Shown in pieces: positions 6,799 through 64,000 of a DNA stretch of 64,000 bases. Source of the stretch: Siphonodentalium dalli (lineage: Eukaryota; Mollusca; Scaphopoda; Gadilida; Siphonodentaliidae); assembly GCA_032622095.1 (NCBI GenBank), contig CP136065.1:246759474-246823473 (forward strand). The letters run 5' to 3'. The notes under the pieces were generated by a model, which saw nothing but the letters and a program-made list of their open reading frames with translations, had not been told where the DNA came from and did not search any database. Made by a program: the position numbers and the translations under genes. Within the stretch, counting starts at the first letter, position 1. The number at the start of each line of letters is the position of its first letter.

Positions 6799-7678
6799 TT
6801 ATATATATTTGTGAATAATCTCACAATTTATTAAGGATATACAAATCCTTTATCTGAAGTTAATGCGAGGAAACTGGGAATACTTAGGCCATCTATCACA
6901 ACTACTAAGGGATTTACCAGCCAACCATCCCGATTCACTTCAGCTGCATGAGGCAAGCGAGTCCAGAACCATATTTAGAGGCCTGAACTTAAGTCTACCC
7001 ATGGTAACAATGATCCCCTAAACATTAGGATACATGATACAGCACAGCATCAACACTCATTCTCTGTTTGAACAATAGATGAGTTAAAGTCATTTGAAAC
7101 ACAAGCATTTCGACTAACATTGAATAAACTTGCTCAATGCAGGTATTTCAATAAAGTTTGTATCAAAATTGCCAGATCACATCACCATTCTTTGAGATAA
7201 ATGAAATAAAGTGACTCTCATTGACGAAATAATTCTCATTTATTGATTGGTGATTTGGTTGCGACGATTGAATGGCTGTTTGTTTACAATTTTGTGCAGT
7301 TCAGACGTTGTGTTTTACAAAAGGGCACAGCTGATGTTGACTATCTTATCAGTAATAGATTAGTAGTGCATTCTTCAAATGTCTAGAGTGGCAGAGTCAT
7401 AAATTATCAGTTTGAAAAAAGCACTTATACGTCTTTAAAGTGATGTAAACTATGGAGTGGTATGGTCTATTTGCTTTAGATTTTTGGTGATGTTAGTAGA
7501 ATGCTACATTCCCCCAGTTGGCATAGCGCCTGGATACTAACTGATCAGTTTCACGCACACGAACAAGTGCATAATATGTCTTTAAATAGACTGGAGGAGA
7601 GCACTGTGAGAGGCCACAACATAATCAAGATAAAACTGAGGCAAGACTTAGGTTTTATAGTTTTAATGGGACACAAAA

Positions 7679-9162
7679 GAGGGTATCATCCCCCCTTTTC
7701 GGTACGCGGGATTCAGGGTGTTTTGAAGCCGTACGCGGGATTCATACCCCCGAATTAACTGGTATTCGGGTTCAAGCAAAACATCTTGGACGCAGGTTTT
7801 GGTGGCGCAAAGTAATATTTTGTGCTAGTTATCTGTATGAATGAGTGGGTAGAATAGCTTCTTGGGCATATTCGACCACCATGCCATCATAAACAGAGAC
7901 AGGGGGGGGGTCAAAATTTTCATACCTGCCAAAACATTAGTTGGAAATTTCACACCAACAATAGGTTGAAATGTTCTTGTAAGTTGATTTTCAAACAATT
8001 TATTGGCGGGAATTAATTGTTTTGGGACCAATATTTGCATATTTTCCTATTTTTTTGTCAAAATTTTGGACTGAAATGGTCATCAGTTGGAAATTTTCCA
8101 ACCTCAGGGGGTGACAGGTTGGAAATTTCCAACACTTGGAAATCTTGTGTCCTGGTCCCTCCCCCGTGGCCAGTCAAAAACTGCTAGTTAATTTAAAAAA
8201 ACAATATTCTCATACATTTGGTCAACATTGGCATTGGAATTGTCATCAGTTGTAAATTTTCCAACCTAAGTGGGGTGTCAGGTTTGAAATTTCCAACTCT
8301 ACGAATGCTTGACGCTAGTCTAGATACTAGGATTTTGCGATTTTCTTGTTCAGATTATAAAATTTTCGCACACCGGGCCGAACCATGCATGGTCGGCCCG
8401 GTGTGTCATTGTCTCTCCCCTATGGCCAATACAAAAATGCTAATAAGTTTAACAATATTTTACTACATTTCGTCAAACTTGTGGTCATCAGTTGGAGAAT
8501 TTTCCAACCTGAGGGGGAGTATGAGGTTTGAAATTTCCAACACTATAGGAAAGCTTTAGTTGAGGCCAGTCTGGATGCTAGGATTTGCGATTTTTGTTTT
8601 CTTACACCGGCCGATCAACGATGGTCAGCTCGGTGTCGTGGTCTCTTGTCCGTAGCCGTGTGCATTTGTATGGAGTTAGACCACTAGATGTTAGGATTTA
8701 TGCAATGTTTCAGGTTAAATATTTGAATGTTCTCATACCGGGAATATAGAACCATGGTTTATGAAGATATAGGATATTAGGCCTAAACACTGAGGTGCAA
8801 GGGGAGGGGGGTGCAAATGGAATTATGCAAAACTTGTGTTCGGTCTGATTCTGACTCAAGGGGGGGGGGGGTGCAGTTGGAATTTCCCAAGGTGGACACC
8901 CCCCCAACGGAAACTCTCTAGCCACGTCCCTGATCATAAAGTATCATAACGACCTCATAACGCGACCGGCATCATAATGTGTCTATGTAACTTCTGCTTG
9001 TATCTGTCTGATATTAAAACAGTCAATTTGTATGTCATTTATCACATATAATTTCTTAACATGTATTCAGGATTCACCCCCCAAAATTAACTCGTATTCA
9101 GGATTCACCCCCCAAAATTAACTGGTATTCAGGATTCAGGGGGGGGAGGGGGTGATACCCTC
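7679..9162. mobile_element. 1.48-kb DNA element with GAGGGTATCA ends
   Basis: Terminal inverted repeats GAGGGTATCA(T)CCCCC at 7679 and GGGGGTGATACCCTC ending 9162 are flanked by direct repeats ACAAAA (7673-7678 and 9163-9168). The right inverted arm lacks it except for ~30 odd bases at the site (~41822-41850), possibly a deletion remnant. Inside, several blocks contain the palindrome TTGGAAATTTCCAA or near copies (~7945, 8120, 8265, 8525). No intact transposase frame is present, so it is non-autonomous. Poly-G/C tracts occur at 7903-7911 and 8860-8870. Confidence 0.65.
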
Positions 9163-17600: not shown

Positions 17601-19575
17601 AGCAAGTTCAGATCAGTAAGCAAAGGGAAAGCCCCAGGTCATGACTCCATATCATATGAGCACATTTTATATGGAGGTGAGTATATCTTACATACTATCG
17701 CCCACATGTTCACCAAAATGTTGGAATTCAATCACATACCATCACAGGCGAAAATCGGAGTCATGGTGCCACTGTACAAAGGGGGCAGCAAACCAAAGAC
17801 GAAATTTGATAACTACAGAGCTATAACTTTGCTTCCTATCCTCTATAAGATTCTCGAAAAAATCATATTTCATCGTCTGGAATCTCATGCCCCACATCTT
17901 ATCCAAGTTAACTCCCTACAGCATGGATTTCAGAAAGGGGTAAGCAGCATGCACTCTTCCGACGCACGTAAAGCGTTTGATACAGTGTGGATAAACGGAT
18001 TGTTGTTCAAATTACTCCAGAGAGGTTTCTGCGGTAAAATATGGCACATTATCAAAACTCTCCTTTGTGGTCTTCAATGCGCTGTCCGCTTTTAATAATT
18101 TAACTTCCAAACTGATCCCCATAAACCAAGGAACAAGACAAGGAAGCATATTAGCCCCTCTTTTATACATGCTGTTCATTGATGACCTATTGGCTGACCT
18201 ATTTTCAAATCCTCATGGCTTGCGATTGAATTCCATAAACTGTGTAGCACCAACACAAGCTGACGACATGACGCTTTTGTCTCTGACAGCAACCGGTGTA
18301 CAACAGTTGTGCAACGTATGTGGAGAGTATAGCCGGAAATGGCGATTTTGTTATAACCAGGACAAATGTAAGGTGGTCGTGTTCAATGAAACAAATTCTA
18401 ATGCTAGAAATCGCACGATAAATACGTGGATCCTCAACGACAAACCGATATCCGAATCTGACAAAATTACACACCTTGGCATACCTTTACATCGTGAGTC
18501 ACATGCTAGCAAGCTCTCCAGTCACATATGTGAGAAAATTAGATCAGTCTATCTCATGTTAAGTAACGCCGGTATGTATGCTGGTGGGATTACCCCACTC
18601 AGCTGCCTTACAATATATTCTTCGGTTGTTTTACCCAAAAGTCTTTATGGGACAGAACTAATGTGTGGGCTCAGTGAGACCAATTTGACATCTCTGGAGC
18701 GAGCACATAGGTTCTGCCTCAAACGCATCCAAGGATTGCCCACAAGATCCCGAACTGATGTCGTCCAATCTCTCCTTGGAACAGGTTCCTTGTCATCGAT
18801 TGTTGATAAACGAAAACTATGTTTTTTGGGGAACCTCTGTAGAATGACGCAAAGAAAATCGTCGCAAGAAATCTTCTCCTCACGATTGGCCGACCACCTT
18901 TCGCAAACGTCAACTGATGAATCTTCTTTTATCAACGATGTTATATCCATACTAAAACGGTATAATTTATATTCATATCTTCACAACTACGCCACACAGG
19001 GAAATTTCCCATCCAAAGGTGAATGGAAAACAATCACCACACAACATATTAACGATATACAAAATCGTGAATGTGAAGAGCGCATGAGAAGCTCTGAATC
19101 ACTAACAACGTTCGCACAAAATCATAATATAATGTCAAAATCTATTCTTTGGAGATCTTGTAGATCACATCCACAGGAAAAACATAAATTCTTGCTTGCT
19201 GCGAAGCTTCTGGCCCTGCATACACATACCTCCCCAGAATGCGGACATTGCAAACTGTGTGACAAAGTTTATGTTGATATTGTTGAGCATGCCTTACTGG
19301 ATTGTTCTTCGACTTCAGAGTCTAGAATCCAATTTTAAATGTGGTTTTCGTTAATTGACATTTTCGGCATACCATGTTTTTTATTCATTGATGCTCTCAC
19401 ACAAAAGGACCAAGTGATGGTATTTCTTTCTATCCTGTCTGACGATATCAGGAGACAAATACTCAACCTGAACGAGTTTTCGCTCTTCGTGGTGAGGAAT
19501 TCCTACGGGATGTGGTCCCAGTATACAAAGGAGATCAATCTCGTCGTAGATAGCAATCTGCTTGTCAATCCTTAA
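17601..19575 (+). pseudogene. Non-LTR retrotransposon reverse transcriptase, 5'-truncated and broken
   Basis: The translated pieces read as a LINE reverse transcriptase. They start at GKAPGHDSIS (17625) and run through VPLYKGGSKPKTKFDNYRAI, ARKAFDTVW (first catalytic Asp), NQGTRQGSILAPLLY and QADDMTLL (the usual FADD/YADD site), to a C-terminal Cys-His motif CGHCKLC...HALLDC. Defects are visible: about 20 residues seem missing between 'SSMHSS' and 'DARKAFD' near 17960, a one-base frameshift lies near 18092 (cgctttt), and a TAA stop at 19336 precedes an in-frame tail to 19575. The endonuclease half is missing, as expected from 5' truncation. It looks CR1/Jockey-like, but the clade is a guess. 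It cannot make a working enzyme. Confidence 0.85.
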
Positions 19576-23026: not shown

Positions 23027-25600
23027 TCATTTTCCTGACATACAGAACATAGTCATTTCTGAATCTTTCTGGCATTCTCTTGGTAACTGCCTAGACACAT
23101 CAATGTTGACCTGTGGGTCTTCATTTACTTTCTCAACATGAGTGTGCAAGTCAATGTTACCTGGTATTTGTATGTCATAGTCATCGTCTAAACCTGTACA
23201 CTCATAATCATTTATTACCACATTTCTGTCACTTTTCCCTTTGAAAAACTTCACAAGACCTATATTCCGTTGAATTACTTTATCCCCTCTCTTAAGCAGT
23301 AAAACTGACCCATTTCGTTCGATTACTTCGAAAGGGGTCGGTTCAAATTTTACACTTAATTTGTTACTCTTCTTTTGGGATAACAGAACATAATCACCAA
23401 CTTTAATCGGACTAATGAGTGCCTTTCTAGAAATGTCAGCATGCTGTTTACTTCTCTCCTTCATTTTCTCATCGCGCTCTCTGACTTTAATATCCGCCGC
23501 TGACATGTTATTTGCGGACATTTTACTTGTGAATTCTGGCACTTTATTCCTAATCTTGCGCTTGAATAATAATTCAGCAGGTGATGCACCTGTTGAGGCA
23601 TGTGGTGTGGACCGATATGCCAGAAGGAAATTATAGATATCCAACTTCCAGTCTTTACCTTCCGCATTGGCCGTACGAATAGCCTTGAGTAAAGTTTTGT
23701 TAAGTCTCTCAATTTCACCATTAGCTGCTGGCCAATACGGACTCACTTTTCGGTGTTGGATACCATTTGTCTTGCAAAAATTTGTGAATGTTAATGACGT
23801 AAATACAGAGCCATTATCACTCATTATACTTAGGGGATAACCATGAACAGAAAATAGTCTTGTCAACCAGTTGATAACAACATCGGAAGTGACAGATTTG
23901 GTAATGTATATCTCTGGCCATTGTGAATATAAATCTACCAATGCAATAATATAGTCCCCTGAAGGGAAAGGTCCACATACATCAATTGCCAACATTTCCC
24001 ATGGAGCATTTGGTAGTGGTGTAGATAGTATCGGCTCAGGAATTGGCTTTGAGCCAACCAGTTGGCATGCATGGCATTCCGAAATATATTGTTGAACCAT
24101 GTTGTCTATTCCAGGCCACCAGACCTTTTCGCGTAACAACTGTTTGCACCTTACAATACCTTGGTGACCAATATGAGCAAGTGCAATCACTTTGGATTGC
24201 AAACACATAGGCATGACAATTCTATTGCCTCGCAGGACAATGTCATGAACAACAGACAATTCATTTTGAACAGAGTAATATTTACAATTTTTGTTCCATT
24301 TACTTGTTTTGATGAAGTCTTTAACTTCCATGAGTGCAGAGTCACTATCAGTAGCCAACGCTATTTCTGGTATTGTCATTGATTTGGGAACAGCAGACTG
24401 TGCCACAAAACATATATATTCTTCTGCAATGTTTTTCCCTATACTTTCACATGAATGGCCCTTGTGCAACAGACGGGAGAGGCTATCCGCAATATTCTCA
24501 ATTCCTGGTCTAAATTTGACATGATAATTAAATGCTTGTAGGCGTAACGCCCATCGCTCAATGCGGCCACATGGCTTGCCTGTTTTGGAAAAAAGGACTT
24601 CAAGTGCTTTATGATCCGTAACGAGGTCAAAATCTATACCTATTAAGTATAAATAAAACCGTTCACACCCCCAGACTGCAGCTAATGCCTCTTTCTCAGT
24701 CTGGCTGTACCTAGTTTCAACATCAGACAGACTTCGACTCGCAAATGCTACAGGCTGGAAGGTACCACAGTTTTGTTTTTGTACCAATATGCTTGCCAAG
24801 CCACATGGTCCTGCATCTACAATCAATTCTGTTTTAGCCAATGGATCAAAATAGGCTAGTGTACTCTCATTGGATAATAAAGATTTTAATGTATTGAATG
24901 CTTGGTTTTCTTTCTCACCCCAATGCCAGGTAGTGCCTTGTTTTATGAGATTACGGAGGGGCTCACACACTGTTGCACAAGCAGGTATAAATTTTGAACA
25001 ATAATTTATTAGGCCCAGGAAACTTCTACATTCCGAAGCTGTGTGTGGCGGGCGGGCTTGTTTGATCGCTTTAACTTTACATTCATCTGGACTCACCCCA
25101 TGTTTTGATATTTTGTGTCCCATAAAAGTCAAACAGTCCAGACCAAATTCACATTTAAGTGGGTTTAGTGTTAGGCCAGCACTCGCTAGAGTACATAGGA
25201 CTTTCTCCAAATTTTTATCATGTTCTGATTGGCTACCTCCAAAAACGATAATATCGTCAGACAGGTTTTGAACCCCTTTACAACCTTGAAGAACCTGAGA
25301 AATTAAGTGCTGAAATATTTCAGATGCACTATTGACCCCGAAATTTAATCTTTTGTACCGAAAGAGTCCTTTTGGTGAGGCAAATGTAGTGATATAGCGG
25401 GACTCTTCTGCGAGTTCTGCTTGATGAAAAGCCCATTTGACATCCAGCTTCGAAATGACCTTGGCCCCATTCATGTTATACAACAATTCGTCCACAGTAG
25501 GCATGGGATGTCTCTCTCTTTCTATGGCTGTATTAGCCTGACGCATATCTACACATACCCGTACATCTTCACCACCTTTTTTTGGAATAACAACAAGAGG
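23027..25600 (-). pseudogene. pol: gypsy pol 3' part: reverse transcriptase, RNase H, integrase
   Basis: An open frame of about 860 codons. Counted from the first Met at 25636 (the first 12 residues belong to the insertion), the reverse transcriptase keeps LDVKWAF (Asp 65). Its catalytic box reads LSDDIIV (126-132) where YxDD is usual. RNase H has Asp 274 in LIVDAGPCGL, TDHKAL (Asp 341) and ADSLSR (Asp 384). Integrase has the H488/H491/C521/C524 zinc finger, then Asp 552 (IDVCGP), Asp 607 (SDNGS) and Glu 643 (NGEIERLN). There is no chromodomain at the C-terminus. The first reverse-transcriptase residues (to GPTPWVSP) are 6 kb away at 31774, so the gene is interrupted and cannot give a full polyprotein, although this part itself has no stops. 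Confidence 0.93.
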
Positions 25601-25601
25601 A

Positions 25602-26160
25602 TCGCAGTTTAAACGGAAGTTGCAAAACCCGCCCAAATTTGTGCTATTATTTCATAATAAACTGAATAAATACTAATTATTTCTAAGTTTTAATACATTT
25701 TATCAGATTTATTGACTAATTTCTGCATTTAGAAGCAGAATCTTAGATTTAAATGTCAGAAAATCTGAAATCATCCCGCGATGACAACTCGATGTTTTTT
25801 TTCTGAGGTGATCATTTCTCCGATATGATATCGTACTCGGTGAATTTTAGACGCACCCAAAAACCAGCCCCACGGTATTGACAAAAACATTTACCACTAT
25901 AAATGCCCACGAAATCTCACAGCGATTCCTCCTATATATAGCCAATGGGACAACAGCGACCACTCAATTAAGTTAACGCCCCACACACATTTGTATTATT
26001 GCTCGGTGCTCCTGTTTATGTATATGCGGCATAAATGGGTCATGGTCCAGGTCCACTATATGTATGCTCTAGCTATACAGGTTCTAGCATACCCTAATTT
26101 TCGCACCTGATATTTCTCTGAGCCCAATGTCTTTACCAATATTGATACCACATAAAATTA
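25602..26160. other. No gene recognised
   Basis: The left part of the insertion, AT-rich. No motif beyond a T run at 25796-25803. Confidence 0.3.
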
Positions 26161-31620: not shown

Positions 31621-31675
31621 CTGGCGAGATCTAGTGAACGTCGGGTGCCGACCTGTTGCCGACCATCTCTATTTC

Positions 31676-31768
31676 ACAACGACGTCGGGCCGACGTCGCC
31701 CCGACTGACATACCGACGGTTGGGCCGACGTCTGGAACCCGACGTCGGGCCGACGTCGTTGTGCTGTC
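31676..31768. repeat. CG-rich palindromic repeat end
   Basis: The palindrome-rich block 'cacaacgacgtcgggccgacgtcg' occurs at both ends in opposite orientation, making a ~93-bp fold-back. ACGTCG boxes occur six to seven times. It ends at the gypsy junction with 'gtgctgtctgg'. It is probably one end of the element that broke pol. Confidence 0.6.
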
Positions 31769-31771
31769 TGG

Positions 31772-33276
31772 GGAGACACCCAAGGTGTGGGACCACTTAT
31801 CGGTTCAATAATATCAAAATCAAGAAGCTCCTCTAGCTTCTTGTCTAATTTCTGACGCATTGCAAATGGTATCCTCCGTGGAGGTTGAGCTACTGGCTTT
31901 ACCAATTTGTTAATGTGTAATTTTAGTAAAAAATTCTTCAATTTACCCACACCTTTGAAAAGGTTGGGGTGTTTTTCAATAATACTAGACTTGGTATCAA
32001 CACTACTTACTGTGTTGATCTGAAGAATCCCCATTTTAGTAGCAGTTTGTTGCCCTAAAAGGGGTGTATGCTCTCCTTCCATTACAAGGAATGATTCAAT
32101 ACTATGTGTATTTCCAATCTCAAGCTTACATGTTATCAGCCCTTTTATAGGCAAAGGCACCATTGAACCGTATGGATATACCTTAGATGTGTACTTTTCC
32201 ATGACAAGGTGTTTTGGCATTGCGTCAAAAATCGACATGGGTATAACATTTACACTTGCACCAGAATCAATCAAGAAATTAACATTTGTATGAGTATTGA
32301 GACGTGCATGAACATAAGACATCTTATTTTTCATTGGTAAATTGAAAACACAATCATCTGAAATATAAGCATTAACATTGTTATCAACATTGGGTGTTAA
32401 TTCATCAACATTATGTGGATACACTTCTTCAGCTCCAATGTTATATGTATATTGTTGCGAACGTTCTTTTGGAATCTGTTGTTGTTGATACTGGGCTCCC
32501 CGATCACGATTTCTTGGCATCCAGTTACGTGGCTCATATTGTCTGTTTTGAGTGTTGTCTGGTTTTCGATACCGTGAATTCTGGAATCTTGGCTCAGTGT
32601 CATATTCTTGGTTTAACTTAGAGCGACACATATGTGTCAAGTGACTATTCTGCACGAAACATCGCTGGCATGTTGTGCCTCGAACTGATCTACAATATTT
32701 TGGTAAGTGCGGACCCTTTCCACACCGTCCACACAGTTCATGATTCTCATACTGCTTCGCACGATCCATATTTGAATACCGATTCCCTTCATGTAGCGGC
32801 TGCTGTGAAAATCGCGATTTCTGGTTTTGCGCACCCACTTGATAGGTCGTTTCAGATATCATGGTTGCTTTTAATTGCTGTTCAATCGAGGCTGCCTGAG
32901 TTTCCGATTGTTCATATATACGCGCGATGTCAATTAACTTTTGAAGGTCTAATGTTGCTTCCTGTAATAGACGTCTTCGTAATTTTGTGTTCGTGCATTT
33001 ATCAATCACTTGGTCTCGAACCATTTCATCTGAATTGGTGTAATCGCAGGTTTTTACCAACTGCCTCAGTCGTGAAATGAAGTGTTCGAGAGGTTCATCA
33101 ACTGTTTGTTGGCATCGTATGAAATTGGAACGCTCAAACATGATATTTCGTTTTTGAACAAATTTTCCAGTTAAAGCCTTTTTTGTGTACTCATAATCAT
33201 TCGTACCATCAGCCGCAGGGTTATCAGGCAAATCTTCGGCAATGTCCATGAGATTTGTACCACCTTTTAACAGCAT
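31772..33276 (-). pseudogene. gag-pol: gypsy gag C-terminal part, protease and start of reverse transcriptase
   Basis: From Met at 33276 the frame has a gag capsid-like helical region. Two zinc knuckles follow (C182-C185-H190-C195 and C203-C206-H212-C217), then a basic, Gln/Arg-rich linker. The aspartic protease comes next, with FLIDSGASVNVIP (catalytic Asp 337) and LLGQQTATKM. Last is the reverse-transcriptase entry RRIPFAMRQKLDKKLEELL...GPTPWVSP (to about residue 502). Beyond that the frame enters the inserted DNA and stops at 31669. Gag, protease and pol are in one frame with no shift. The true gag start lies upstream (33483), cut off by an in-frame stop in a TA repeat. Confidence 0.9.
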
Positions 33277-49664: not shown

Positions 49665-51421
49665 TACGTATATAGGTAGTACCCACCCACCACCCCATCC
49701 CGCCACCCATAGTATCTTATGCGCTGCAGGCGCTCGTATATAGGTAGTACCCACCCACCACCCCATCCCGCCACCATCGTAAATAGGTAGTACCCACCCA
49801 CCACCCCATCCTGCCACCCATAGTATCTTATGCGCCGCAGGCGCTCGTATATAGGTAGTACCCACCCACCACCCATAGTATCTTATGCACCGCAGGTGCT
49901 CGTATATAGGTAGTACCCACCCCATCCCGCCACCCATAGTATCTTATGCGCCGCAGGCGCTCGTATATAGGTAGTACCCACCCACCACCCATAGTATCTT
50001 ATGCACCGCAGGTGCTCGTATATAGGTAGTACCCACCCCATCCCGCCACCCATAGTATCTTATGCGCCGCAGGCGCTCGTATATAGGTAGTACCCACCCA
50101 CCACCCCATCCCGCCACCCATAGTATCTTATGCGCCGCAGGCGCTCGTATATAGGTAGTACCCACCCACCACCCCATCCCGCCACCCATAGTATCTTATG
50201 CGCTCGTATATAGGTAGTACTCACCCCATCCCGCCACCCATAGTATCTTATGCGCCGCAGGCGCTCATATATAGGTAGTACCGACCCACCACCCCATCCT
50301 GCCACCCATAGTATCTTATGCGCCGCAGGCGCTCGTATATAGGTAGTACCCACCCACAACCCCATCCCGCCACCCATAGTATCTTATGCGCTCGTATATA
50401 GGTAGTACCCACCCACCACCCCATCCCGCCACCATCGTATATAGGTAGTACCCACCCACCACCCCATCCCGCCACCATTGTAAATAGGTAGTACCCACCC
50501 ACCACCCCATCCTGACACCCATAGTATCTTATGCGCCGCAGGCGCTCGTATATAGGTAGTACCCACCCACCACCCCATCCCGCCACCCATAGTATCTTAT
50601 GCGCTCGTATATAGGTAGTACTCACCCCATCCCGCCACCCATAGTATCTTATGCGCCGCAGGTGCTCGTATATAGGTAGTACCGACCCACCACCCCATCC
50701 TGCCACCCATAGTATCTTATGCGCCGCAGGCGCTCGTATATAGGTAGTACCCACCCACAACCCCATCCCGCCACCCATAGTATCTTATGCGCTCGTATAT
50801 AGGTAGTACCCACCCACCACCCCATCCCGCCACCATCGTATATAGGTAGTACCCACCCACCACCCCATCCCGCCACCATTGTAAATAGGTAGTACCCACC
50901 CACCACCCCATCCTGACACCCATAGTATCTTATGCGCCGCAGGTGCTCGTATATAGGTAGTACCCACCCACCACCCCATCCCGCCACCCATAGTATCTTA
51001 TGCGCCGCAGGCACTCGTATATAGGTAGTACCCACCCACCACCCCATCCCGCCACCATTGTAAATAGGTAGTACCCACCCACCACCCCATCCTGACACCC
51101 ATAGTATCTTATGCGCCGCAGGCGCTCGTATGTAGGTAGTACCCATCCACCACCCCATCCCGCCACCCATAGTATCTTATGCACCGCAGGTGCTCGTATA
51201 TAGGTAGTACCCACCCACCACCCCATCCCGCCACCCATAGTATCTTATGCGCCGCAGGCACTCGTATATAGGTAGTACCCACCCACCACCCCATCCCGCC
51301 ACCCATAGTATCTTATGCGCCGCAGGCGCTCGTATATAGGCAGTACCCATCCACCACCCCATCCCGCCACCATCGTATATTGGTAGTACCCACCCACCAT
51401 CCCATCCTGCCACCCATAGTG
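49665..51421. repeat. 68-bp satellite array A
   Basis: About 26 units. A full unit runs 'ggtagtacccacccaccacc' + 'ccatcccgccacccatagta' + 'tcttatgcgccgcaggcgct' + 'cgtatata'. Shorter variants lack the hairpin or half the unit. On the minus strand each unit has five runs of three or more G with short loops (GGGTGGCGGGATGGGG...GGG), a textbook G-quadruplex pattern. The GCGCC-GCA-GGCGC core is a small hairpin. A 401-bp higher-order block is duplicated (starting ~50316 and ~50717). Long frames here are artefacts. Confidence 0.95.
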
Positions 51422-53258: not shown

Positions 53259-54670
53259 TTTCTATACTAAATACTTATTGACGAGTAGTTAATGAACTTA
53301 TTATAATACATTTCCCACTAATTAAGAGGAATGCTACTTCATTTGTATTATCTGTTGTCTTAGATTTCCTGAACATCCATTCAGATGAATAATAGACCAT
53401 TCCAATGCTTTTTTACTGATGAATCTTATGCGCCGCAGGCACTCGTATATAGGTAGTACCCACCCCATCCCGCCACTCATAGTATCTTATGCGCTGAAGG
53501 CGCTCGTATATAGGTAGTACCCACCCACCACCCCATCCCGCCACCCATAGTATCTTATGCGCCGCAGGCACTCGTATATAGGTAGTACCCACCCCATCCC
53601 GCCACTCATAGTATCTTATGCGCTGCAGGCGCTCGTATATAGGTAGTACCCACCCACCACCCCATCCCGCCACCCATAGTATCTTATGCGCCGCAGGCGC
53701 TCGTATATAGGTAGTACCCACCCACCACCCCATCCCGCCACCCATAGTATCTTATGCGCTGCAGGCGCTCGTATATAGGTAGTACCCACCCACCACCCCA
53801 TCCCGCCACCATCGTAAATAGGTAGTACCCACCCACCACCCCATCCCGCCACCCATAGTATCTTATGCGCTGCAGGCGCTCGTATATAGGTAGTACCCAC
53901 CCACCACCCCATCCCGCCACCCATAGTATCTTATGCGCTGCAGGCGCTCGTATATAGGTAGTACCCACCCACCACCCCATCCCGCCACCCATAGTATCTT
54001 ATGCGCTGCAGGCGCTCGTATATAGGTAGTACCCACCCCATCCCGCCACTCATAGTATCTTATGCGCTGCAGGCGCTCGTATATAGGTAGTACCCACCCA
54101 CCACCCCATCCCGCCACCCATAGTATCTTATGCGCTGCAGGCGCTCGTATATAGGTAGTACCCACCCACCACCCCATCCCGCCACCCATAGTATCTTATG
54201 CGCTGCAGGCGCTCGTATATAGGTAGTACCCACCCACCACCCCATCCCGCCACCATCGTAAATAGGTAGTACCCACCCACCACCCCATCCCGCCACCCAT
54301 AGTATCTTATGCGCTGCAGGCGCTCGTATATAGGTAGTACCCACCCACCACCCCATCCCGCCACCCATAGTATCTTATGCGCTGCAGGCGCTCGTATATA
54401 GGTAGTACCCACCCACCACCCCATCCCGCCACCCATAGTATCTTAAGTGCTGCAGGCGCTCGTATATAGGTAGTACCCACCCACCACCCCATCCCGCCAC
54501 CATCGTAAATAGGTAGTACCCACCCACCACCCCATCCTGCCACCCATAGTATCTTATGCGCAGCAGGCGCTCGTATATAGGTAGTACCCACCCACCACCC
54601 TATGCGCCGCAGGTGCTCGTATATAGGTAGTACCCACCCACCACCCCATCCCGCCACCCATAGTATCTTA
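53259..54670. repeat. Block 1: unique 160-bp leader plus 68-bp satellite array B
   Basis: Leader 53259-53420 ('tttctatactaaatacttattgacg...') then ~18 satellite units to 54670. The leader recurs unchanged at 54671, so leader and array were duplicated as a 1412-bp block. Array B units mostly have GCGCTGCAGGCGC where array A has GCGCCGCAGGCGC. A 444-bp higher-order repeat is visible (e.g. 53684 and 54128). Confidence 0.9.
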
Positions 54671-56072
54671 TTTCTATACTAAATACTTATTGACGAGTAG
54701 TTAATGAACTTATTATAATACATTTCCCACTAATTAAGAGGAATGCTACTTCATTTGTATTATCTGTTGTCTTAGATTTCCTGAACATCCATTCAGATGA
54801 ATAATAGACCATTCCAATGCTTTTTTACTGATGTATCTTATGCGCCGCAGGCACTCGTATATAGGTAGTACCCACCCCATCCCGCCACTCATAGTATCTT
54901 ATGCGCTGAAGGCGCTCGTATATAGGTAGTACCCACCCACCACCCCATCCCGCCACCCATAGTATCTTATGCACCGCAGGTGCTCGTATATAGGTAGTAC
55001 CCACCCACCACCCCATCCCGCCACCCATAGTATCTTATGCGCTGCAGGCGCTCGTATATAGGTAGTACCCACCCACCACCCCATCCCGCCACCATCGTAA
55101 ATAGGTAGTACCCACCCACCACCCCATCCTGCCAACCATAGTATCTTATGCGCCGCAGGCGTTCGTATATAGGTAGTACCCACCCACCACCCCATCCCGC
55201 CACATATAGTATCTTATGCGCTGCAGGCGCTCGTATATAGGTAGTACCCACCCACCACCCCATCCCGCCACCATCGTAAATAGGTAGTACCCACCCACCA
55301 CCCCATCCTGCCAACCATAGTATCTTATGCGCCGCAGGCGTTCGTATATAGGTAGTACCCACCCACCACCCCATCCCGCCACCCATAGTATCTTATGCAC
55401 CGCAGGTGCTCGTATATAGGTAGTACCCACCCACCACCCTATCCCGCCACCCATAGTATCTTATGCGCCGCAGGCACTCGTATATAGGTAGTACCCATCC
55501 ACCACCCCATCCCGCCACCCATAGTATCTTATGCACCGCAGGCGCTCGTATGTAGGTAGTACCCATCCACCACCCCATCCCGCCACCCATAGTATCTTAT
55601 GCACCGCAGGTGCTCGTATATAGGTAGTACCCACCCATCCCGCCACCCATAGTATCTTATGCGCCGCAGGCATTCGTATATAGGTAGTACCCACCCACCA
55701 CCCCATCCCGCCACCCATAGTATCTTATGCACCGCAGGTGCTCGTATATAGGTAGTACCCACCCACCACCCCATCCCGCCACCCATAGTATCTTATGCGC
55801 CGCAGGCATTCGTATATAGGTAGTACCCACCCACCACCCCATCCCGCCACCCATAGTATCTTATGCGCCGCAGGCACTCGTATATAGGTAGTACCCACCC
55901 ACCACCCCATCCCGCCACCCATAGTATCGTATGCGCCGCAGGCACTCGTATATAGGTAGTACCCACCCACCACCCCATCCCGCCACCATCGTATATAGGT
56001 AGTACCCACCCACCATCCCATCCTGCCACTCATAGTATCTTATGCGCCGCAGGCGCTCGTATATAGGTAGTA
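54671..56072. repeat. Block 2: duplicated leader plus 68-bp satellite array C
   Basis: Leader 54671-54832, then ~18 units to 'ggtagta' at 56072. Array C mixes B-type and A-type hairpin variants, including GCACCGCAGGTGC, in which both sides of the stem have changed together. Confidence 0.9.
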
Positions 56073-56737: not shown

Positions 56738-57000
56738 TTAACACCAATCAGCATGGAGTAAAACTCCCATGATGCATCCGTGTCCGTCATTCATGAATAA
56801 ATACTGTCCCGCTAATCCGAAATCTTTGTTCTTAATGTTAACCTCTTTGTTTTCGATGAGGTGCTTCACACAGAATGATCGGGGACCCGGACCGACCATC
56901 GGTAACACGCCCGCTAATGTCCCTCTGTTCTTAAAGTAGTACACATTCTCCCGATAATTCTTGTCCATTTCTTTCACATTGGCAGAAACAATTAGTCCCG
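56738..57000 (-). CDS. Last coding exon of an unidentified host gene
   Basis: On the minus strand the acceptor AATTTATCTTGCAG ends at 57001 and the exon runs to a TAA at 56738. Spliced to the exon at 59510-59589 it continues in frame (phase 1), giving ...LAIEA then AGLIVSANVKEMDKNYRENV and ending CIMGVLLHADWC. It has a Cys-containing C-terminus, several Gly, and no transmembrane span. I do not recognise the family. The matched splice phase between two exons 2.5 kb apart supports a real gene. Upstream exons must lie beyond 64000. The intron between the exons is filled with fold-back repeats. Confidence 0.65.
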
Positions 57001-59509: not shown

Positions 59510-59589
59510 CTGCTTCTATAGCCAGAGCCTCGGCTGGTTTACCCGGAACGACAGCACACCATTTGACAGTAACAGGAGCTTCAAATACA
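59510..59589 (-). CDS. Penultimate exon of the host gene
   Basis: 80 bases between acceptor TTTTGTTTTATTGCAG (59590-59605, minus strand) and donor GCAG|GTATGT. It reads VFEAPVTVKWCAVVPGKPAE then ALAIEA. It enters with the last base of a codon and leaves with the first base of the next. The short KWCAV reminds one of the start of a transferrin lobe, but the rest does not fit. Its acceptor and first 14 bases (TGTATTTGAAGCTC) are the template of the tandem array at 60.7-64 kb. Confidence 0.65.
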
Positions 59590-59625
59590 CTGCAATAAAA
59601 CAAAAACAACCAATCATATACCAAG

Positions 59626-60707
59626 GCGGTCCAGTCCGGTCCGGTCCAGGCTATTCCGGTCCGGTACACATGCCTGGACCGGTCCAAAACGGTCCGGTTC
59701 ACCTATAATAGGCTATGTGTTAATGAATTCTCTGTTTTCTCAAAGTTTTTACTCTGTATAGTACAAACTATAAGGTTACTGGGTTCAGTGCATTGCAATG
59801 AGTCCATATATGTAAAAACTTACATTGTTTGCCGATTGTATGCATCATTGTCTGTCTCTGGTGGGATATACTGGGAACGATGCACGATAATAGTATTTCT
59901 AGTAATGCGCGAACATGCACTAATTAAATGTATTGGATAGATATATAGCTAGGGCCAGAATGTGTTATAACCTGGCACTCAACTGATCGTATGCATGATT
60001 CGTATCATACTTATTTTCATTAAATTGAAATTTAAACTAAATAACTATACTGATGACAGTTATACAAATGTGTACTATTATGACTACTACATTAATATTG
60101 GAGTCTTGGAGATTGTGATGGCTGATTGTATATAGTCCTGACAATTTACAGTTATATACCTAAGTACAACTACTATTGGATTATAATGTGACTGTCTTGT
60201 GTATGTACTATGTAATGTGGTTTGCATGTTTCTTCGATAATTATAACTGTGAAAAACAATAGAATACTCGATTCGTATCCATCCAAATTGATTAGTATAG
60301 ATGCCATGTTACACTGTTTATGACAAATAGTTCCATACTCATTCAGTTGCATGTTTGTCGCATTGATAGGGTGCTACATAGTGTTGGCCAGTGTTACACT
60401 AATACATTTTAAGGAAAGTGACATGTACAAAGTACATCTATACATTGTTTTTGTGGCATCAAATGTTTAATAGATATTAACCACTTGAATGCGTCAATAC
60501 ATCGTTGCTAATTGATATGATGGCAAATACGCAATAATATTCACGATAGTTTATTATAACTGAAGTAAAATAGTGGACCGGACCGGAGAGTACCGGACCG
60601 GCGGCAAAAAGCGGTCCGGTCCGGTCCAGTGACACCCGGTCCAGACCGGACCGCAGTCCACCGCTGGACCGCGGACCGGTCCAAAGCGGTCCGGTCCGCA
60701 TCACTAC
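59626..60707. mobile_element. GGACCGG-rich inverted-repeat insertion within the splice-site array
   Basis: It lies between the first array unit (next to the exon) and the rest of the array. Both ends are packed with GGTCCGGTCC/GGACCGG boxes in opposite orientations (59626-59705 and ~60573-60707), so the ends fold back on each other and on themselves. On the minus strand the outer edge reads TAGTGATGCGGACCGG, similar to hAT-type starts. TACC occurs at both junctions. The middle (59706-60572) is AT-rich with no gene. Confidence 0.6.
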
Positions 60708-63700
60708 CTCAAATACACTGCAATCAAACAAAAACAAACAATCGTATACCTCAGCCTCAAATACACTGCAATCAAACAAAAACAACCAATCAACCTGAGC
60801 CTCAAATACACTGCAATTATTCAAAAACAAACAATCATATACCTGAGCCTCAAATACTCTGCAATCACACAAAACAACCAATCATATACCTGAGCTTCAA
60901 ATACACTGCAATCAAACAAAAACAACCAATCGTATACCTCAGCCTCAAATACACTGCAATCAAACAAAAACAAACAATCATATACCTGAGCTTCAAATAC
61001 ACTGCAATAAAACAAAAACAAACAATCATATACCTGAGCCTCAAATACTCTGCAATCACACAAAACAACCAATCATATACCTGAGCTTCAAATACACTGC
61101 AATCAAACAAAAACAACCAATCGTATACATCAGCCTCAAATACACTGCAATCAAACAAAAACAACCAATCATATACCTGAGCCTCAAATACACTGCAATC
61201 AAACAAAAACAACCAATCGTATACCTCAGCCTCAAATACACTGCAATCAAACAAAAACAACCAATCATATACCTGAGCCTCAAATACACTGCAATTATTC
61301 AAAAACAAACAATCATATACCTGAGCCTCAAATACTCTGCAATCACACAAAACAACCAATCATATACCTGAGCTTCAAATACACTGCAATCAAACAAAAA
61401 CAACCAATCATATACCTGAGCCTCAAATACACTGCAATTATTCAAAAACAACCAATCATATACCTGAGCCTCAAATACTCTGCAATCACACAAAACAACC
61501 AATCATATACCTGAGCTTCAAATACACTGCAATCAAACAAAAACAACCAATCGTATACCTCAGCATCAAATACACTGCAATCAAACAAAAACAACCAATC
61601 ATATACCTGAGCCTCAAATACACTGCAATTATTCAAAAACAAACAATCATATACCTGAGCCTCAAATACACTGCAATCACACAAAACAACCAATCATATA
61701 CCTGAGCTGCAAATACACTGCAATCAAACAAAACAACCAATCATATACCCGAGCTTCAAATACACTGCAATCAAACAAAAACAAACAATCATATACCTGA
61801 GCCTCAAATACACTGCAATCAAACAAAAACAACCAATCAAATACCTGAGCCTCAAATACACTGCAATCACACAAAACAACCAATCATATATCTGAGCTTC
61901 AAATACACTGCAATCAAACAAAAACAAACAATCATATACCTGAGCCTCAAATACTCTGCAATCACACAAAACAACCAATCATATACCTGAGCTTCAAATA
62001 CACTGCAATCAAACAAAAACAACCAATCATATACCTGAGCTTCAAATACACTGCAATCAAACAAAAACAACCAATCATATACCTGAGCTTCAAATACACT
62101 GCAATCAAACAAAAACAACCAATCATATAACTGAGCTTCAAATACACTGCAATCAAACAAAAACAACCAATCATATACCTGAGCTTCAAATACACTGCAA
62201 TCAAACAAAAACAACCAATCATATACCTGAGCTTCAAGTACACTGCAATCAAACAAAAACAACCAATCATATACCTGAGCTTCAAATACACTGCAATCAA
62301 ACAAAAACAACCAATCATATACCTGAGCTTCAAATACACTGCAATCAAACAAAAACAACCAATCGTATACCTGAGCCTCAAATACACTGCAATCAAACAA
62401 AAACAAACAATTATATACCTGAGCCTCAAATACACTGCAATCACACAAAACAACCAATCATATACCCGAGCTTCAAATACACTGCAATCAAACAAAAACA
62501 AACAATCATATACCTGAGCCTCAAATACTCTGCAATCACACAAAACAACCAATCATATACCTGAGCCTCAAATACACTGCAATTATTCAAAAACAAACAA
62601 TCATATACCTGAGCCTCAAATACTCTGCAATCACACAAAAACAACCAATCATATACCTGAGCCTCAAATACACTGCAATTATTCAAAAACAACCAATCAT
62701 ATACCTGAGCCTCAAATACTCTGCAATCACACAAAACAACCAATCATATACCTGAGCTTCAAATACACTGCAATCAAACAAAAACAACCAATCGTATACC
62801 TCAGCATCAAATACACTGCAATCAAACAAAAACAACCAATCATATACCTGAGCCTCAAATACACTGCAATTATTCAAAAACAAACAATCATATACCTGAG
62901 CCTCAAATACACTGCAATCACACAAAACAACCAATCATATACCTGAGCTGCAAATACACTGCAATCAAACAAAACAACCAATCATATACCCGAGCTTCAA
63001 ATACACTGCAATCAAACAAAAACAAACAATCATATACCTGAGCCTCAAATACACTGCAATCAAACAAAAACAACCAATCAAATACCTGAGCCTCAAATAC
63101 ACTGCAATCACACAAAACAACCAATCATATACCTGAGCTTCAAATACACTGCAATCAAACAAAAACAAACAATCATATACCTGAGCCTCAAATACTCTGC
63201 AATCACACAACACAACCAATCATATACCTGAGCTTCAAATACACTGCAATCAAACAAAAACAACCAATCATATACCTGAGCTTCAAATACACTGCAATCA
63301 AACAAAAACAACCAATCATATACCTGAGCTTCAAATACACTGCAATCAAACAAAAACAACCAATCATATACCTGAGCTTCAAATACACTGCAATCAAACA
63401 AAAACAACCAATCATATACCTGAGCTTCAAATACACTGCAATCAAACAAAAACAACCAATCATATACCTGAGCTTCAAGTACACTGCAATCAAACAAAAA
63501 CAACCAATCATATACCTGAGCTTCAAATACACTGCAATCAAACAAAAACAACCAATCATATACCTGAGCTTCAAATACACTGCAATCAAACAAAAACAAC
63601 CAATCGTATACCTGAGCCTCAAATACACTGCAATCAAACAAAAACAACCAATCATATACCTGAGCCTCAAATACACTGCAATCACACAAAACAACCAATC

Positions 63701-64000
63701 ATATACCCGAGCTTCAAATACACTGCAATCAAACAAAAACAAACAATCATATACCTGAGCCTCAAATACTCTGCAATCACACAAAACAACCAATCATATA
63801 CCTGAGCTTCAAATACACTGCAATCAAACAAAAACAAACAATCATATACCTGAGCCTCAAATACTCTGCAATCACACAAAACAACCAATCATATACCTGA
63901 GCTTCAAATACACTGCAATCAAACAAAAACAACCAATCATATACCTGAGCCTCAAATACACTGCAATTATTCAAAAACAAACAATCATATACCTGAGCCT
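60708..64000 (-). repeat. Tandem array of ~68 copies of a 3' splice site (47-48 bp unit)
   Basis: On the minus strand each unit reads a pyrimidine-rich tract TTGGTTGTTTTTGTTTGATT, then GCAG, then TGTATTTGAAGCTCAG, then GTATATGA. That is the acceptor and first 14 bases of the exon at 59510-59589 followed by a donor-like AG|GTATAT. TTGCAG is kept in essentially every unit I read. Variants differ by 'tcacacaaaac' (47 bp) versus 'tcaaacaaaaac' (48 bp), 'ttattcaaaaac', and GCTTC/GCCTC. The array continues past the window end. A 1241-bp higher-order repeat (~26 units) is duplicated (e.g. 61442 and 62683; 61867 and 63108). Frames of 16-residue repeats on this strand are artefacts. Confidence 0.9.

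Follow-up and report, generated by a model that had tools for sequence, protein, structure and literature searches.

In a stretch of 64,000 nucleotides from the scaphopod mollusc Siphonodentalium dalli (C5:246759474-246823473, hereafter the window), the intron upstream of an 80-nt coding exon, exon Y, contains a 48-bp tandem array of that exon's own 3' splice region. Comparison with the five other copies of the gene in the genome (2.23 Gb on 9 contigs, searched throughout) settles this identity as far as sequence can, because in four of the six paralogs array and exon join without interruption, and the match is therefore not one of chance. Analysis of the six genes suggests, with a probability of about 0.7, that the array is a passive minisatellite that was born across the splice junction and has been tolerated, the last copy being the one that is spliced.

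Read in the sense of the gene, the unit consists of GTATATGATTGGTTGTTTTTGTTTGATTGCAG followed by TGTATTTGARGCTCAG and presents, in order, a GT resembling a donor, a TGAT that lies 25 nt ahead of the AG and could act as branch site, a T-rich tract, the AG itself, 14 exon bases and a further AG; the would-be exon is 16 nt long and the interval between neighbouring units, the would-be intron, 32 nt. Exon Y begins with TGTATTTGAAGCTC directly after TTGCAG, and its own 46 bp (32 of intron and 14 of exon) differ from the units of the window array by 1 base at the closest and 3 at the median, the corresponding distance for one paralog, copy F, being left out as a register artefact. In the window copy the exon's own pyrimidine tract is one purine shorter than that of the main unit type, and the majority unit is identical across the six arrays except for one base in copy E. 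An earlier note on the window had described the array as an amplified copy of the exon's acceptor region and put it at about 68 units within the window; both statements hold, as Tandem Repeats Finder (TRF) delimits 69.1 copies there. Followed beyond the window for another 750 bp or so, as far as about C5:246824223 (near 64750 in window numbering), the array reaches 84 units. The same note had the unit repeated exactly, which slightly overstates the case: 66 of the 99 distinct units of the six arrays have G in place of A at unit position 42, and 20 of the 83 intervals between successive units of the window copy measure 47 bp. With a tandem unit in the 10-100 bp range and many copies, the array has the form of a minisatellite. 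A reading of the array as a coding repeat was considered and rejected, since the one frame open in the 48-bp unit is broken by the 47-bp units and by TAA variants.

The genome search with array DNA returned at least 30 matches, drawn from 8 scored candidate regions; all lie at C5:246.638-247.436 Mb and belong to six gene copies linked on one chromosome, A (the window copy), B, C, D, E and F; with these counts as lower bounds, the unit was not found outside the six paralogs, and the unrelated loci that the earlier note had named as grounds for regarding the array as an ordinary satellite did not appear. Counted literally, the arrays contain 84 (A), 50 (B), 17 (C), 29 (D), 14 (E) and 7 (F) units, 201 in total; the variation in copy number is between paralogs of a single genome. 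Array and exon Y adjoin directly in C, D, E and F, where the last unit doubles as the start of the exon, and the unit holds both sides of the exon boundary, the two features that mark a minisatellite as one of a splice junction. Exon and array are separated in A and B by an insertion (Table 1) that is not present in C, D, E and F, in which the array-exon junction was compared. Copies A (246.82 Mb) and B (246.97 Mb, also on C5) are inverted, near-identical copies about 150 kb apart that share this insertion; they are 97 to 99% identical in long blocks, yet have 84 and 50 units, which indicates rapid turnover of array length. A different, 32-bp satellite lies in the Y-Z intron of D (L014, 6096-9901; TRF, 113.8 copies) and of E (L015, about 6870-7964), and is absent from A, B, C and F in the sequence examined; thus other intronic arrays of the family come and go.

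Continuity of array and exon would be expected equally if an intronic minisatellite with a cryptic acceptor had come first and had been taken over as the beginning of exon Y (exonisation). Nor does any array-less relative display the older state: a whole-genome search with exon Z, the last coding exon, scored 13 candidates and yielded 10 matches; six of them, at E 1e-47 or better, are the six genes, the next best has an E of 3.66, and a close paralog lacking the array did not turn up. We nevertheless regard recruitment of a pre-existing satellite as improbable, since the exon part of the unit encodes V-[F/C/Y]-E-A-P, the first residues of a constrained exon in all six copies, and since the unit is confined, in the genome search, to this gene family.

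The gene is encoded on the minus strand, and its exons W, X, Y and Z were identified from sequence (X, Y and Z in Table 1). Exons X, Y and Z are compatible in phase, exon W joins X likewise, and AG from the donor end of exon X combines with the first T of exon Y into a serine codon; in the window copy, the array takes up about 4.05 kb of an X-Y intron of some 6.8 kb. The ratio of nonsynonymous to synonymous substitution rates (omega) lies between 0.08 and 0.28 for 14 of the 15 paralog pairs (coding exons, with X and Y only for pairs that include D), and the coding comparison of A with B yields 2 synonymous and 0 nonsynonymous changes. Because the exons are phase-compatible, the frames open and omega at most 0.28 in all 15 pairs, this is by sequence a real protein-coding gene under purifying selection, in agreement with the earlier note. 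Synonymous divergence (dS) is highest, at 0.31, for A-F and B-F; since these all carry the array, it must be older than a substantial divergence. The stop codon of D, E and F lies two codons before the end common to A, B and C. No Pfam match up to E 10 was obtained for the Y-Z, X-Y-Z or W-X-Y-Z peptides, and a PDB match to a repetitive pentatricopeptide protein (E 0.00035) was rejected as a repeat artefact, no single stretch of it being significant.

Table 1. Features of the gene, its array and the remainder of the window (window positions unless prefixed by C5).
Feature	Position	Strand	Description
Exon X, 156 nt	C5:246825874-246826029	-	Upstream exon, 2.4 kb past the window end
48-bp minisatellite	60707..64000	-	Exon Y 3' splice region, 14 exon bases and AG/GTATAT (slash, exon-intron boundary); TRF 69.1 copies, 92% matches
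Insertion, about 1.08 kb	59623..60706		Between exon and array; copies A and B only; CGGTCC/GGACCG-rich ends, both carrying imperfect inverted repeats
Exon Y's own 3' splice region	59590..59621	-	GTATATGATTGGTTGTTTTTGTTTTATTGCAG; last array unit, adjoining the exon; differs from the closest array unit at 1 of 46 bp
Exon Y, 80 nt	59510..59589	-	Encodes VFEAPVTVKWCAVVPGKPAEALAIEA; donor CAG/GTATGT; open frame, phase-compatible on both sides; in six paralogs
Exon Z, last coding exon	56738..57000	-	GLIVSANVKEMD...GVLLHADWC, terminal stop; acceptor TTATCTTGCAG; in phase with Y; in six paralogs
GC-rich arrays	49734-51414 and 53460-56072		Large; one satellite with mixed 43- and 68-bp units; flank the gene's 3' end
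Open frame, 486 codons	34946-36406	+	RNA 2'-phosphotransferase (Tpt1/KptA) domain, PF01885, E 3.5e-41
Retrotransposon-like open frame	31669-33276	-	Weak, below-cutoff protease match
Retrotransposon-like open frame	23027-25651	-	Reverse transcriptase, RNase H and integrase
Retrotransposon-like open frame	17995-19338	+	Reverse transcriptase

A single tandem duplication of the end of the X-Y intron together with the start of exon Y, in the ancestor of the six paralogs, would account for the origin of the array, which would then have grown, shrunk and mutated by unequal exchange to the 7 to 84 units seen. The open and constrained frame of the junction suggests that exon X is normally spliced to none but the last copy, whose acceptor alone leads into the full 80-nt exon with its donor. 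Exon definition and the minimal size of introns make an exon of 16 nt and an intron of 32 nt too small for ordinary recognition, and upstream units, each with a donor after 16 nt and a mini-intron of 32 nt between it and its neighbour, would probably be passed over on both counts. A unit included by mistake would bring a premature stop, and the transcript would be removed by nonsense-mediated decay, which would argue that the array is tolerated rather than used. Tandem repeats make up 13,301 of the 64,000 window bases, about one fifth (the union of 19 of the larger TRF intervals); a minisatellite on a splice junction is therefore unsurprising here, which is a further reason to prefer a passive array.

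The last acceptor is also distinct from the others in sequence. The tract of the last copy, before the exon, is TTATTGCAG in A, B, C and D, a likeness due to common descent and not to be counted four times, whereas F has another tract rich in pyrimidines; among the array units TTATTGCAG occurs once in 201. Per 20 bases, the exon's own site has 14 pyrimidines in each of A, B, C and D, 13 in E and 15 in F, compared with array means of 12.6 to 13.0, and units with at least as many pyrimidines as the exon's own site number 10 of 83 in A, 5 of 49 in B, 0 of 17 in C, 5 of 28 in D, 9 of 14 in E and 0 of 6 in F; copy E runs counter to the trend.

Inclusion of a single 16-nt unit would shift the frame, the next TGTATTTGA being read as TGT ATT TGA. 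Among the 175 units in which both AG and GT are in place, none leaves the frame open on single inclusion, as a microexon would, and all 175 lead to a premature stop, as a poison exon would; the suggestion in the earlier note that 16-base microexons might diversify the protein is weakened by this result. Short peptide inserts could still be added by cassettes of two units, which keep the frame and contain no stop in 20 of 79 combinations in A, 14 of 47 in B, 1 of 11 in C, 2 of 18 in D, 2 of 13 in E and 0 of 4 in F, or by reading through from an upstream acceptor into exon Y, which is in frame and open for 2 of 17 units in C, 2 of 29 in D, 1 of 14 in E and none of 7 in F (calculated for C to F, as the insertion intervenes in A and B). 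The open extensions begin only at the nearest one or two units of C, D and E, and most units of C to F are blocked by stops or frame shifts, so that in-frame alternative coding is a very improbable function for the array. As candidate poison exons or decoys the units are far more plausible than as a source of protein variety.

The splice signals within the units have not changed at equal rates. The AG is missing from its expected place in 4 of the 201 units, two of which (one in A, one in B) keep TTGCAG beside an indel in the exon part; true losses of the acceptor amount to 2 (one in D, one in F), and AG survives in 199. The donor GT is lost in 22 units (A 4, B 1, C 6, D 10, E 0, F 1), and a literal AG/GTAT follows the exon part in 160 (74 + 43 + 11 + 18 + 8 + 6). 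A minimum-spanning tree built from 96 distinct units assigns 2 events to AG and 21 to the donor GT, the average dinucleotide having 8.4; 3 of the 47 dinucleotides have 2 events, namely AG and two in the exon part, which is little changed overall (2.6 events per site). AG ranks fourth among the dinucleotides in A and B alone and third in C to F alone. Constraint on the acceptor AG is a hint, not proof.

Several of these observations weigh against a purely passive array. The acceptor of exon Y in copy E is no better than the units upstream of it; AG has been kept where the donor GT has repeatedly been lost, with far fewer events on the tree than the mean; and the array has been retained in all six copies over a dS of up to 0.31, unlike the 32-bp satellite of the Y-Z intron. 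The retention of AG would fit selection for decoy acceptors, although two dinucleotides of the exon part are equally low. Such selection is part of an alternative that we consider unlikely, in which the units bind U2AF and U2, and sometimes U1, and thereby slow or divert the splicing of exon X, inclusion of a unit leading to nonsense-mediated decay and array length tuning the output of each paralog. A ladder of decoys and poison exons of this kind would be consistent with the putative branch site, pyrimidine tract and AG of each unit, with the presence of AG and GT together in 175 of 201, with the place of AG among the least changed dinucleotides, with the stop that invariably follows single-unit inclusion, and with the maintenance of the array in all six genes found; it is difficult to reconcile with a length as unstable as 84 against 50 units in near-identical twins, with the decay of the donors, and with an AG no better conserved than two further dinucleotides of the exon part. 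Slightly less likely again is a length-tunable brake on splicing, in which up to 84 complete acceptor decoys, any of them a potential poison microexon, would vie for exon X and so govern the output of the six paralogs, AG being selected and the donor left to decay.

The least credible alternative is recursive splicing, with the CAG/GTATAT at the end of the unit serving as a ratchet point through which the 6.8-kb intron would be removed stepwise. The many units with a literal AG/GTAT after the exon part would supply such points, but a stronger AG lies 16 nt upstream within the unit, the stretch before CAG/GT is purine-rich, and GT is among the most changeable dinucleotides.

Other repeats and open frames in the window are listed in Table 1. 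A GGGTGGCGGGATGGGGTGG repeat, related to the GC-rich 43-/68-bp satellite that flanks the 3' end of the gene, is present in the X-Y intron of copy D.

Repeats that span splice sites are already known. In human CBS, the variant c.844_845ins68 duplicates the intron 7/exon 8 junction and places two splice regions side by side, of which the more distal is described as strongly favoured in splicing, the gene still working (PMC2630376); the array resembles it in the juxtaposition of duplicated splice regions and differs in having 7 to 84 copies rather than one extra copy of 68 bp. A 31-bp variable number of tandem repeats (VNTR) in the same gene, c.1444_1467+7(16_21), spans the exon 13-intron 13 boundary (PMC2630376; PMC1395315), is variable in length, and is tied to reduced CBS activity in the title of a work cited there (PMC2630376). 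It too is a minisatellite of similar copy number that lies across an exon-intron boundary and multiplies a splice site, but the site multiplied is a donor (5') site, where an exon ends, whereas here it is a complete acceptor region, in six paralogs. In a potato RdRp gene (RdRp, RNA-dependent RNA polymerase), tandem duplication across a 3' splice site gave rise to a new intron, supported by 106 RNA-seq reads (PMC4974935); as in the array, the end of an intron and the start of an exon were duplicated with branch site, pyrimidine tract and AG, and a donor lies inside the duplicate, but there are two copies and an intron demonstrated by RNA-seq, whereas the acceptor copies described here leave no more than 32 nt between them. 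A narrowly worded search of the open-access literature found no comparable amplified acceptor array, and absence from print is not claimed; PMC7277093, examined for VNTRs, mentions none. What sets the present case apart is the scale, of up to 84 complete acceptor regions, and the occurrence in six constrained paralogs.

Classical work on the choice of splice sites relied on artificial constructs with duplicated sites. The genes described here form a natural series of 7 to 84 complete acceptor regions in six genes that encode a constrained protein. The choice of the true exon among dozens of near-identical acceptors, a few of which differ from the genuine one by a single base, would provide a direct test of exon definition against scanning for the first AG, and, if use of the units proves measurable, the length of the array would serve as a natural dose variable.
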